50,763 nt of DNA from Treponemataceae bacterium. GTDB lineage: Bacteria > Spirochaetota > Spirochaetia > Treponematales > Treponemataceae. The stretch's first letter is position 1. Every line of letters begins with the position of its first letter. Positions 11,687 through 16,096 of this stretch are shown one piece after another. The notes below the pieces were generated by a model that was given only the letters and a program-made list of their open reading frames with translations, was not told where the DNA came from and made no database searches. The stretch spans positions 1-50,763 of the forward strand of contig JAILBN010000049.1 in assembly GCA_024680915.1 (NCBI GenBank), read 5' to 3'. The position numbers and the translations under genes were made by a program.

Positions 11687-11961
11687 TTTTAACCATCCTG
11701 TGTTTAATGCTTACCCTTATATATTAGAATATAACAGGAAGATGAAAAAAGAAACTCAAAAAAATGCTTTTCTTAATAAATTCTTAATTTTTCCGAAAAA
11801 AATTTTTATTTTTATCAATTACTATTTTACCGATTACATGGAGCAGGACTTATTTATTTTCTTAAGTTGCCTTATGCTACCTCTTGAAGGTATTTCAAAA
11901 CTTTGCTAGGTTTAATTTGTATACAGAAAAATCAGCAGTATTCAGGAGGAAACGATACTGT

Positions 11962-13674
11962 ATGGGAAAATATCAGCCTTTCGGTCAGATAAAACTTGAT
12001 GCTCGCTCTTGGCCGGATAATGTCATTTCAAGACCCCCGGTATGGTGTTCTGTCGATCTTAGAGATGGGAATCAGGCTCTTCCTGTTCCTATGACTGTGG
12101 ACCAAAAGCTTGCTTATTTTGATTTGCTGCTTAAGATAGGCTTCAAAGAGATTGAGATTGGTTTTCCTGCAGCCAATGATACTGAATTTGTTTTCGTCAG
12201 GAGGCTCATTGACGAGAAGCTTATACCTGAGGATGTGGCTGTCCAGGTCCTCTGCCAGGCCAGGGAACCCCTCATCCAGCAGACTATGAAAGCCGTCAAC
12301 GGGGCTTCTCATGTAATCTTTCATATATATAATGCGGTTTCCGACATACAGAGGGAATTCACTTTCGGAATGACACGGAAGGAACTGGTGGAATTCGCCT
12401 GCAATGGAGTGAAATTCGTGAAGGCCAACACAGGTCTGGCTGGTGATAGGACAAAAATTCAGCTGGAATATTCTCCTGAGGAGTTTTCGGCCACTGATGG
12501 TGATTTCTGTGTTGAGATATGCCACCGGGTATACGAAGAATGGGCGCCTTCTGCTGATAATCCGCTGATTATTAATCTTCCTGCGACTGTGGAGACAGCC
12601 TCCGCGAATATTTTCGCTGATCAAGTCGAGTATTTTATAAAGCACTTCGAGGATGCCGCCGGTATTCATGAAAGATTACCTGACGGGAGAATATGCGGAG
12701 GCAAGGTTTTGATAAGCCTTCATAACCACAATGACAGGGGTACCGGAGTCGCCAGCGCGGAGCTGGGGCTGCTTGCAGGAGCTTCCCGTCTTGAGGGAAC
12801 TCTTTTCGGTAATGGTGAAAGGACAGGCAATCTTGATTTGATCACAGTCGCAATGAATATGTTCACTCAAGGAATAGAGACTGGTCTTGATTTCAGCCGT
12901 ATAAATGATGTCTGCGTCCAGTTCTCTAACCTTACCGGTATGTCTGTTCCCGTGAGACAGCCTTATGGAGGAGCCTTGGTTTTCACTTCATTTTCCGGCT
13001 CCCACCAGGATGCCATCCGCAAGGCTTTTGCTGCCAGGGCTTCAGCCGGTGACGAGAACGCCCGTTGGAGAGTCCCCTATCTTCCCCTCGACCCTAAGGA
13101 TGTCGGACGTGAATACGAGGAGATTATAAGAATCAACGCTCAGAGCGGTAAAGGCGGTGCTGCCTGGATCCTGGAGAACCGTTTTGGGGTCATTCTGCCG
13201 AAGGAAATGCAGATTATAGTCGGTAAAGCGGTTAAGCTCGCCGCCGACAAGGCCCACAAAGAGCTGCTTCCCGATGAGGTTTACAAGGTTTTTGCTGACG
13301 GCTGGCTTAATACGACAGAGCCCCTTTCTGTCCTGGATATTGTGGAGACCCATATGGACGGCAGTGATACTCGGGATAATGTTATGTGCCGTACCAGCAT
13401 AATGTGGAACGGGAAACAGTATTCTGTAGGAGGCAGGGGAAACGGTCCTGTGGCAGCTTTCTCCCAAGCTCTCGCCTACACTCCGGTCCCTCCTTTTTCT
13501 GTCACGGATTTTCACGAGCACTCCATAGGTTCTGGTTCTGATACTGATGCTATGGCTTATGTCAGGATTCATTTTGAGAACGGAGGTGTTCACTGGGGAG
13601 CAGGAAAAAGCTCCAATATCGGTCGTGCGGGTATAAATGCCATAGTCAGTGCCATAAACAGGCTTTGTGTATAA
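11962..13674 (+). CDS. leuA: 2-isopropylmalate synthase (long, yeast/actinobacterial type)
   Basis: 570 residues from ATG 11962, chosen because AGGAGGA (11944-11950) lies 11 nt before it; the frame is open further upstream. It condenses acetyl-CoA with 2-oxoisovalerate, the first step committed to leucine. Visible motifs are WCSVDLRDGNQAL (metal Asp and catalytic Arg), SLHNHNDRGTGVASAELG (metal-binding HxH) and GNGERTGNLDL. The N-terminal sequence YQPFGQIKLDARSWPD and the C-terminal regulatory domain (SIGSGSDTDAMAYVRI) place it in the LeuA2 type, not the E. coli type. No leuB, leuC or leuD is adjacent. A 275-nt AT-rich leader precedes it; I see no T-box. Confidence 0.93.
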   Translation: MGKYQPFGQIKLDARSWPDNVISRPPVWCSVDLRDGNQALPVPMTVDQKLAYFDLLLKIGFKEIEIGFPAANDTEFVFVRRLIDEKLIPEDVAVQVLCQAREPLIQQTMKAVNGASHVIFHIYNAVSDIQREFTFGMTRKELVEFACNGVKFVKANTGLAGDRTKIQLEYSPEEFSATDGDFCVEICHRVYEEWAPSADNPLIINLPATVETASANIFADQVEYFIKHFEDAAGIHERLPDGRICGGKVLISLHNHNDRGTGVASAELGLLAGASRLEGTLFGNGERTGNLDLITVAMNMFTQGIETGLDFSRINDVCVQFSNLTGMSVPVRQPYGGALVFTSFSGSHQDAIRKAFAARASAGDENARWRVPYLPLDPKDVGREYEEIIRINAQSGKGGAAWILENRFGVILPKEMQIIVGKAVKLAADKAHKELLPDEVYKVFADGWLNTTEPLSVLDIVETHMDGSDTRDNVMCRTSIMWNGKQYSVGGRGNGPVAAFSQALAYTPVPPFSVTDFHEHSIGSGSDTDAMAYVRIHFENGGVHWGAGKSSNIGRAGINAIVSAINRLCV

Positions 13675-13690
13675 AATCCTTCAACTTTCT

Positions 13691-13749
13691 TGTACAAAAA
13701 AATGTACACTTTTTTTATTCAATGTATAAAAAAGTGTACATTTTTTTTT
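13691..13749 (+). terminator. 20-bp perfect hairpin with T9 (leuA terminator; contains TGTACA motifs)
   Basis: The arm 13696-13715 (A7-TGTACAC-T6) is perfectly complementary to 13728-13747 (A6-GTGTACA-T7), with a 12-nt loop and a final T9. TGTACA occurs three times (13691, 13703, 13735). It lies 17 nt after the leuA stop, so termination is the simplest role. The repeated palindromic TGTACA could also bind a regulator of the sigma-54 promoter about 220 nt downstream. Confidence 0.75.
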
Positions 13750-13963: not shown

Positions 13964-13980
13964 TTGGCACAGTTCTTGCA
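13964..13980 (+). promoter_or_regulatory. Consensus sigma-54 (RpoN) promoter
   Basis: TTGGCAC (13964-13970), AGTTC, TTGCA (13976-13980). The invariant GG and GC dinucleotides are separated by exactly 10 nt, and every flanking consensus base (TTGGCAC-N5-TTGCA) is present. With the GC at -12, transcription would start near 13991, giving a leader of about 54 nt to the sigma-factor ATG at 14045. Confidence 0.85.
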
Positions 13981-14044
13981 AGTGTATATGTGGAAACTGT
14001 CAGTGTGTACAAAAGCATAATAACAGTTTCAAAGGGGTAAAATT

Positions 14045-14869
14045 ATGGAAAACAGTATTTACAGCAGCTACATCAAGCAGATACTCAGGTATCCGCTTAT
14101 GAGTTTTGAAGAGGAAATTGAGCATTCAAAGCTCATTCATAAAGGTGACAACAATGCTAAGATGCGTCTTGTGCAGGCTAATCTCAGGCTTGTGGTCAAT
14201 ATCGCGAAAAAATACGAGAATCCATATGTCTCCATCATGGATCTTATACAGGAAGGAAACATCGGTCTTTTGTCTGCGGCTGGGAAATATCATTATTCCT
14301 ACAAAACCCGTTTTTCTACATATGCTTATGCATGGATATCACAGGCTATAACAAGATTCCTTCAGACAAAGGTTTCTGCGATAATGCTGCCTAACCGCAA
14401 GGAAGAGCTGCTTCGCAAGATCCGGACCGAACAGTCCAGGCTTTTTCAGTATTTAGGACATGATCCTTCCTATGCTGAGATTGCAGAAAGCTTAGGAATT
14501 TCTCTTAAGGATGTGAAAGAGAGTCTTGCCTGCTCATATTCTGTCGTCAGTATCAATTCTGGTGATAAAGATGAGAACGGTGCCTGTCTTTGTGATTTGA
14601 TTCCTGACAATCACTTCACCCCGGAAGGTGCCATGATGGAAGAAATTGACAAGCAGGAGGTTCATGAAATGGTTGAGAAGCTTCCTTCGATGGAAAAAAG
14701 TGTCATTTTCAATCGTTTCAATTTTGCCCATGACGAGAATGTAAAGACCCTCCGTCAGTTGGGTGATCAGCTTGGTGTCTCAGCAGAGACGGTCAGACAA
14801 GTTGAGATTCGTGCTCTTCGTCATTTGAGGACAAATTACAAGAATAGCGAAGAATATCGTCATGCTTGA
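14045..14869 (+). CDS. Alternative sigma factor, sigma-70 family (RpoS/RpoH-like)
   Basis: 274 residues with regions 1.2 (SIYSSYIKQILRYPLMSFEE), 2.1-2.4 (NLRLVVNIAKKYENPYVSIM, DLIQEGNIGLLSAAGKYHYS, FSTYAYAWISQAITRFL), 3 (EELLRKIRTEQSRLFQYLG, DPSYAEIAESLGIS) and 4 (TLRQLGDQLGVSAETVRQVE, IRALRHL). It lacks the long N-terminal acidic domain of primary sigma factors, so it is a group 2/3 alternative sigma. Its size is close to that of Borrelia RpoS (about 267 residues). AAAGGGG is the ribosome site. The sigma-54 promoter upstream implies activation through RpoN and an enhancer-binding protein not present here. I cannot tell RpoS from RpoH by eye. Confidence 0.9.
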   Translation: MENSIYSSYIKQILRYPLMSFEEEIEHSKLIHKGDNNAKMRLVQANLRLVVNIAKKYENPYVSIMDLIQEGNIGLLSAAGKYHYSYKTRFSTYAYAWISQAITRFLQTKVSAIMLPNRKEELLRKIRTEQSRLFQYLGHDPSYAEIAESLGISLKDVKESLACSYSVVSINSGDKDENGACLCDLIPDNHFTPEGAMMEEIDKQEVHEMVEKLPSMEKSVIFNRFNFAHDENVKTLRQLGDQLGVSAETVRQVEIRALRHLRTNYKNSEEYRHA

Positions 14870-14873
14870 ATGA

Positions 14874-14904
14874 TTTCCGGACAGCTTTACCCCCTGTCCG
14901 GAAA
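14874..14904 (+). terminator. Terminator-like hairpin after the sigma factor gene
   Basis: TTTCCGGACAG (14874-14884) pairs with CTGTCCGGAAA (14894-14904): 11 bp with a 9-nt loop, 4 nt after the stop codon. The downstream T-tract is weak (AGTCATTTCTAT). Confidence 0.65.
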
Positions 14905-14963: not shown

Positions 14964-15016
14964 GGTATGTGTCTGCTAAAGCCCCTTGACTTTGGGCTTT
15001 GTTCAGGTTCAGAGAT

Positions 15017-16096
15017 ATGCCGGATAAAAAACGTAAGCAACTTTCCAGTAAAAAGATATTTATGATTACCCTTATAATACTTGGTGTGGGTACTATTATG
15101 CTCGTCGCCAGTATTCTGTTCGCCCCAAGGGCGGAGCCTGCTCAAGAAGCTTTGCAGCCTGCCTCTGAGCCGGCACCGGGGAAGCTTTCATCCGATTCAT
15201 CTTCCGTAGATCTTTCAGATACAGTATCGACCGCTATTCCTCCCCAAAGCCGCCCTCAGTCTCCTGCTGCAGAAAAGCCTTCTGCGGATACTTCTGAGTC
15301 ACGGACGGATAAAACCACTGCTGCCCAGGAAGCTCCTGCGTCTCCTGAAGCTGATATAATAACCATTGAGGTCAAAAAATCAGAAACAGAGAAAGAGTCT
15401 CAAAAGCCTGCTGTCACTGTGACACCAGCTTCTGACGGTGCGAAGCTGGTCTTTGTCTTTGATGATGCAGGCCACAACCTTAACCAGCTTAAGCCCTTTT
15501 TGGAGCTTCCCTTCGATTGTGTCATCGCGGTTCTTCCTGCCTTGCCCCATTCCGGGGATGCGGCTTCAGCCGCCCGTGAAGCAGGGAAACAGGTTATTCT
15601 GCATCAGCCCATGCAGGCTGTGAATCTTTCCACGGACCCGGGACCATCAGCCATAAAGCCGGATATGCATACCTATGAGATAGAGGCTTTGGTCAAGAAA
15701 AACCTGGCGGAGGTTGGTCCTGTGTCAGGTGTCAATAATCACGAGGGCTCTTTGATCACCGCCACTCAGAGTGCCATCGGCGCTGTCCTTGACGTTTGTA
15801 AGGAAGAAGGCATTTTCTTCCTGGATTCAAGGACCAATGCAGAGACAAAGGCTCCCCTTGCGGCAAGGGAAAGGGGTATGACGATATATGAGCGTGATAT
15901 TTTCCTGGACAACACTCAGTCCAGGGAGGATATCATAGCCATGATTAATAAGGGACTTGCAGTCGCTGATAAAAAGGGACATGCCATAATGATCGGTCAT
16001 ATCTGGTCCGACGGGCTTGCCGCGATTATTGAGGAGCTTTATCCTCAGTTGCTGGCGAAAGGCTATGTTTTCACCGATCTTTCCGGCTTGGATTAA
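15017..16096 (+). CDS. Divergent polysaccharide deacetylase family protein (YibQ-like)
   Basis: 359 residues. Residues 1-20 are basic, 20-36 form a single membrane anchor (IFMITLIILGVGTIMLVASI), and about 37-140 are a Pro/Ala/Ser/Glu-rich spacer. The last 210 residues are the divergent polysaccharide deacetylase fold: LVFVFDDAGHNL, AVLPALPHSGDAASAAREAG, VILHQPMQA, VSGVNNHEGSLIT and FFLDSRTNAET. The family usually reads VNNHMGS at the fourth block; here Met is Glu. It probably acts outside the membrane on a glycan. Members are often linked to envelope or septal functions, but the substrate is not established. The start was chosen to exclude a short N-terminal extension. Confidence 0.82.
   Translation: MPDKKRKQLSSKKIFMITLIILGVGTIMLVASILFAPRAEPAQEALQPASEPAPGKLSSDSSSVDLSDTVSTAIPPQSRPQSPAAEKPSADTSESRTDKTTAAQEAPASPEADIITIEVKKSETEKESQKPAVTVTPASDGAKLVFVFDDAGHNLNQLKPFLELPFDCVIAVLPALPHSGDAASAAREAGKQVILHQPMQAVNLSTDPGPSAIKPDMHTYEIEALVKKNLAEVGPVSGVNNHEGSLITATQSAIGAVLDVCKEEGIFFLDSRTNAETKAPLAARERGMTIYERDIFLDNTQSREDIIAMINKGLAVADKKGHAIMIGHIWSDGLAAIIEELYPQLLAKGYVFTDLSGLD

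Follow-up and report, generated by a model that had tools for sequence, protein, structure and literature searches.

Two questions are raised by this locus, namely which RNA polymerase holoenzyme transcribes the sigma factor gene sigma1, and whether the gene belongs to a cascade of the kind known from Borrelia. The window, i.e. the whole stretch of 50,763 nucleotides that was analysed (contig C5), carries sigma1 downstream of leuA (11884–13674), and an AT-rich gap of about 290 bp separates the end of leuA from the sequence TTGGCACAGTTCTTGCA (Table 1). A sequence-only reading had seen a sigma-54 promoter here, in front of a 274-residue sigma-70-family gene, and had proposed an RpoN-to-RpoS-like cascade. 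Both elements are found in the window sequence. The core has the form TTGGCAC-N5-TTGCA, with the GG at 13966–13967 and the GC at 13978–13979 spaced by ten bases, and it fits the TGGCAC-N5-TTGCW context and the GG/GC spacing of sigma-54-dependent promoters; the reading frame behind it has the predicted length and encodes a protein with sigma-70 regions.

Table 1. Features at the sigma1 locus, in positions of the window.
Feature	Position	Strand	Basis
Enhancer-like dyad 1, TGTACA-AAAAAA-TGTACA, proposed activator site	13691..13708	+	Window count, motif class at sigma1 orthologues
Enhancer-like dyad 2, TGTATA-AAAAAG-TGTACA, proposed activator site	13723..13740	+	Same as for dyad 1
Sigma-54 promoter core TTGGCAC-N5-TTGCA (-24/-12)	13964..13980	+	Sequence, genome matches, conservation before 49/50 orthologues
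Predicted transcription start	13991..13991	+	Inference from the typical spacing of -12 and +1
Likely ribosome-binding site AGGGG	14033..14037	+	Read from sequence
sigma1, group-2 sigma-70-family factor, 274 aa, grouped with Borrelia RpoS	14045..14869	+	ORF, Pfam, tree
Inverted repeat TTTCCGGACAG...CTGTCCGGAAA just 3' of the sigma1 stop codon, possible terminator	14874..14904	+	Read from sequence

The core before sigma1 is the only match without mismatch in the window. Matches with up to two mismatches number 20 against 16.5 expected, and since this count is no higher than expected the looser matches carry no meaning. In the whole 3.15-Mb genome (134 contigs) TTGGCAC-N5-TTGCA has three exact matches, all correctly oriented and located 42–77 nt 5' of a start codon; they precede sigma1, a second sigma-70-family gene beside groES called sigma2 (C82), and the small heat-shock gene hsp20 (C127). 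A fourth match, to the looser TGGCAY form, falls inside a gene for a histidine kinase, on the opposite strand, and probably reflects chance.

Conservation of the site was scored with a weighted -24/-12 consensus (maximum 15.4) within 300 nt upstream, with shuffled controls. A score of at least 12 is reached before 49 of 50 sigma1 orthologues (shuffled mean 2.2, maximum 6) and a score of at least 13 before 45 of them (shuffled mean 0.4, maximum 2). For sigma2 the figures are 88 of 89 and 86 of 89, with shuffled means of 6.0 and 1.0, and the site is kept in 26 of the 27 families of the class examined, the missing one being f31. One sigma1 orthologue (L036) shows no site in the upstream stretch examined. 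In all seven congeneric genomes the site is located 58–93 nt before the ATG of the sigma1 orthologue, in flanks that otherwise appear unrelated. The pattern TTGGCAY-N5-TTGCW has 28 matches in these seven genomes, of which nine fall within unrelated genes, and the reversed control pattern gives nine matches in total; the other 19 precede sigma1 (seven genomes), sigma2 (six), hsp20 (five) and one further gene (L209/L314, one genome), and the sigma2 site of the seventh congener has one mismatch. The -24/-12 bases are thus present in other treponemes, as the sequence-only reading had asked, and far beyond them. One scan of genome contigs listed mostly RpoD matches from Firmicutes, with at least six usable spirochaete loci.

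Looser matches do occur in the window at chance frequency, but the exact matches, their placement before genes and their conservation lie far above the shuffled controls, and the conservation refutes the idea that a short degenerate motif was matched by chance, a reading that can practically be dismissed. Being conserved class-wide, the core should have a function, and this also bears on the proposal that an upstream sigma-70 promoter gives most of the sigma1 transcript, with the sigma-54 site in a minor role. Such a promoter would find room in the AT-rich 290-bp upstream region, and a long sigma-70 transcript is known from B. burgdorferi rpoS as well (PMC11109971). However, the upstream region has as many sigma-70-like matches as its shuffled versions, none of them suitably placed ahead of the sigma1 ATG, and no convincing one lies nearer the gene, so that the sigma-70 promoter named beforehand as the refuting case is not seen there, and we regard a mainly sigma-70-driven sigma1 as very unlikely.

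In the exceptional family f31 the sigma2 gene examined (L283) has no sigma-54 site despite rpoN in the genome. Loss of rpoN was rejected as the cause, as the gene is found in four of the five f31 genomes, including that of L283; control may have been rewired in this family, or the gene examined may be a paralogue. In another case (L229) the sigma2 site lies within the sigma2 reading frame as extended upstream.

The sigma1 protein contains the sigma-70 regions 1.2, 2, 3 and 4 in Pfam, and, among the 25 best-scoring curated NCBI sigma families listed, reaches the cut-off of none. It shares with proteobacterial RpoS the group-2 layout without region 1.1, but its score against that model (TIGR02394) is 190.7 bits with a cut-off of 378.7, and the proteobacterial protein is placed elsewhere in the tree. 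In a tree of 62 proteins, all 26 sigma1 proteins, together with Borrelia RpoS, are found on one side of a branch with a support of 100/100, and sigma2, RpoD and E. coli RpoS on the other. A topology with Borrelia RpoS beside sigma2 is rejected (p 0.016), and one that puts it beside E. coli RpoS by a narrow margin (p 0.049); Borrelia RpoS shows 35% identity to sigma1 versus 32% to sigma2. Sigma1 and Borrelia RpoS might still be unrelated by orthology, with sigma-54 control acquired independently in the two lineages, since the branch of Borrelia RpoS is long and sequence similarity is extensive among all these sigma factors, but the fully supported split, the rejected placement with sigma2 and the higher identity to sigma1 make convergence quite unlikely. 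The evidence that sigma1 is orthologous to Borrelia RpoS thus appears good, and not final because the Borrelia branch is long. The label RpoS-like can accordingly be sharpened, as sigma1 falls in one group with Borrelia RpoS, which is more than likeness. Downstream of the inverted repeat that follows sigma1, a polysaccharide deacetylase gene (PF04748) is located at 14999–16096.

The further components anticipated for a sigma-54 cascade, RpoN and an activator, are both encoded in the genome. The rpoN gene product has a canonical RpoN box, ARRTVAKYR. A search for activator domains gives seven matches, three of them true sigma-54 activators: one with the architecture REC-AAA-HTH (C111), one with GAF-AAA-HTH (C97), and a third (C84, L004) in which no DNA-binding domain is recognised. 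The REC-AAA-HTH protein shows 56% identity over 446 residues to Rrp2 of Borrelia genomes, and the gene of a PAS histidine kinase is located directly upstream of it, here as in Borrelia, with 32–34% identity between the kinases; by sequence, the C111 pair is orthologous to Hk2-Rrp2. A candidate for the phosphorylated activator of the sequence-only reading thus exists, beside its histidine kinase. The Rrp2 of T. denticola has already been predicted to be a sigma-54 activator (PMC12070737).

In a T. denticola-like genus, TTAG replaces TTGG before sigma1 in six genomes, and also before sigma2 in the three of these six that were examined there. In the RpoN of the TTAG genomes the first Arg of the box is gone (AVRTV or STRTV), and two other genomes of the genus retain both the Arg and TTGG (RpoN genes L262, L264–L268; sites L170, L171, L186, L188–L192, L331, L336). 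This co-variation was rejected as proof of contact between the RpoN box and the -24 element, as hsp20 of T. denticola keeps TTGG; the pattern indicates no more than a relaxed preference and probably arose once in evolution. In a Borreliaceae genome of 0.9 Mb (G334) the search for the RpoN DNA-binding domain gave no match, despite an rpoS with a sigma-54 core and Rrp2, and the assembly may lack or mask rpoN.

Counting short words blindly in the region 5' of the -24 element brought out two distinct motifs, both of them dyads. TGTATA-N6-TATACA, with up to two mismatches, is found at 26 of 28 sigma1 genes, one of 28 sigma2 genes and none of five hsp20 genes, and TGTRTCA-N3-TGAYACA, with up to three mismatches, at none of 28, all of 28 and all of five, respectively; the shuffled means for both counts are 0.2–1.5. 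In held-out genomes, unused for motif discovery, the own dyad is present at 20 of 20 sigma1 and 33 of 39 sigma2 genes, with cross-matches at chance level. The relaxed dyad TGTRYA-N6-TRYACA (TGTRYANNNNNNTRYACA) has only two matches in the 50.8-kb window (0.01 expected), which are dyads 1 and 2 of Table 1; about 224 nt separate the end of dyad 2 from the sigma-54 core. The upstream dyads are strongly enriched and gene-specific, and are proposed from their sequence to be activator sites.

In Borrelia, Rrp2 is held to activate without a specific enhancer. The same might apply to a real sigma-54 promoter here, and the dyads would then serve as sites for a different regulator, such as a repressor, or terminate leuA transcription. 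No dyad was found at Borrelia rpoS or at sigma2 of a 1.14-Mb, T. pallidum-sized genome, both of which have the core promoter, and the dyads of the window are AT-rich and follow directly after leuA. Across distant genera, however, the class of the dyad tracks the downstream gene, sigma1 on the one hand and sigma2 and hsp20 on the other, and the dyads in the window show no terminator pattern, so that we consider activation without these dyads unlikely. On the same two grounds the repeats at 13691–13746 were rejected as a terminator.

The promoter core and its conservation, the rpoN and activator genes, the two classes of dyads and the grouping with Borrelia RpoS can all be read from the sequences, and the explanation that we favour, at a probability of roughly 85%, is that sigma1 is a sigma-54-driven RpoS orthologue with a dyad-bound activator and with sigma2 and hsp20 as a parallel branch. 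RNA polymerase with sigma-54 would form a closed complex at the core and transcribe sigma1, the presumptive treponemal orthologue of Borrelia RpoS, and an AAA+ activator bound to dyads 1 and 2 would loop to this complex and open it with ATP. The newly made sigma1 should then direct a regulon. The likeliest activator of sigma1 would be the Hk2-Rrp2 pair, with the GAF-type activator as the alternative; in parallel, sigma-54 would drive sigma2 and hsp20 via a different dyad and probably the other activator. Most simply, a single sigma-54 hub would feed two branches that each have an activator of their own. There are two activators with a DNA-binding domain for two classes of dyads, and Borrelia has kept Rrp2 together with the sigma1 orthologue; the pairing of Rrp2 with sigma1 and of the GAF activator with sigma2 and hsp20 is therefore our guess, held at somewhat better than even odds. 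We infer the use of the promoter in vivo, the pairing of activators with dyads, the signals and the targets. The RpoN-to-RpoS-like cascade proposed beforehand is thereby supported as a prediction, by RpoN, the activators, the conserved -24/-12 bases and the grouping with RpoS, and it would be wider than first proposed, having a parallel branch of sigma2 and hsp20 with a different enhancer-like motif.

In the Borrelia-type cascade BosR stabilises the rpoS mRNA, and the sigma factor controls a large regulon. The Rrp2-RpoN-RpoS system of B. burgdorferi resembles the one described here in having a second sigma factor of the same group, RpoN, and Rrp2 beside a histidine kinase. The core TTGGCAYNNNNTTTGCA found before rpoS in three Borrelia genomes, which agrees with the published sigma-54 promoter of Borrelia rpoS (PMC2940757), is nearly identical to the -24/-12 core before sigma1. 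In B. burgdorferi, rpoS is the sole identified sigma-54 gene and Rrp2 the sole activator (PMC11109971), whereas three activators and at least three targets (sigma1, sigma2 and hsp20), all three conserved, are found here, together with enhancer-like dyads and a second sigma branch.

The second branch can be compared with stress data from T. denticola. The sigma2 gene is located at L017:1501-2399 (C82:13967-14865) and was found in 138 of 145 family genomes, and hsp20 (L018:1501-2047) has TGTGTCA dyads like those at sigma2. T. denticola TDE0937 is identified as sigma2 by its two published primers, both of which map within the sigma2 gene of genome G051; it is a member of the sister branch and not the counterpart of the window gene sigma1. 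Upstream of it are a TGTGTCA dyad and a core of the sigma-54 type, and hsp20 of G051, matched to TDE1029 by map position only, has the near-consensus core TTGGCATATAAATTGC and TGTGTCA repeats upstream. In the published data considered here (PMC2965109), TDE0937 is induced 2.8-fold by heat, 21.8-fold by oxygen and 14-fold by osmotic downshift, and the Hsp20 TDE1029 9.5-, 8.5- and 6.7-fold, respectively. TDE0070, by map position probably the sigma1 of T. denticola, is without stress induction in the arrays of that paper (PMC2965109), which fits a separate signal for sigma1. Sigma2 is probably the general stress sigma factor of spirochaetes. The passages of the T. denticola paper considered here declare an RpoS homologue to be missing and make no mention of a sigma-54 promoter, and rpoN is absent from their text (PMC2965109).

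That sigma-54 drives an RpoS-type sigma factor is a kind of control already known from Borrelia, where the cascade has been treated as a peculiarity of the Lyme spirochaetes, with T. denticola said to lack RpoS. The data presented here instead point to treponemes possessing an RpoS orthologue under the same kind of promoter. As both the sigma1 and the sigma2 switches are widespread in the spirochaete class, the virulence cascade of Borrelia looks like an old spirochaete circuit that is older than Borrelia. We think it probable that spirochaete RpoN is an ancestral hub for stress sigma factors, with two activators and dyads, one for sigma1 and one for sigma2 and Hsp20, of which host-bound lineages kept fragments. 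If so, the RpoS branch would have been retained in Borrelia and the sigma2 branch in the T. pallidum-sized genome, in neither case with recognisable enhancers. A search of open papers turned up no description of a sigma-54 promoter in front of a sigma gene of treponemes. Within that coverage, the RpoS orthologue of treponemes, the conservation across the class, the second branch and both enhancer-like motifs are new. The analysis yields enhancer motifs that can be tested and a second branch that fits known stress data of T. denticola, and it makes it possible to ask what remains under the control of the reduced T. pallidum-type version.

A fourth consensus site located between genes is found in the congeneric genome G004, in front of a gene on the reverse strand (L314:871-1770) that encodes a protein of 299 residues. 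The protein has a C-terminal helix-turn-helix and stretches resembling a very divergent sigma factor, with Pfam matches below the cut-off.
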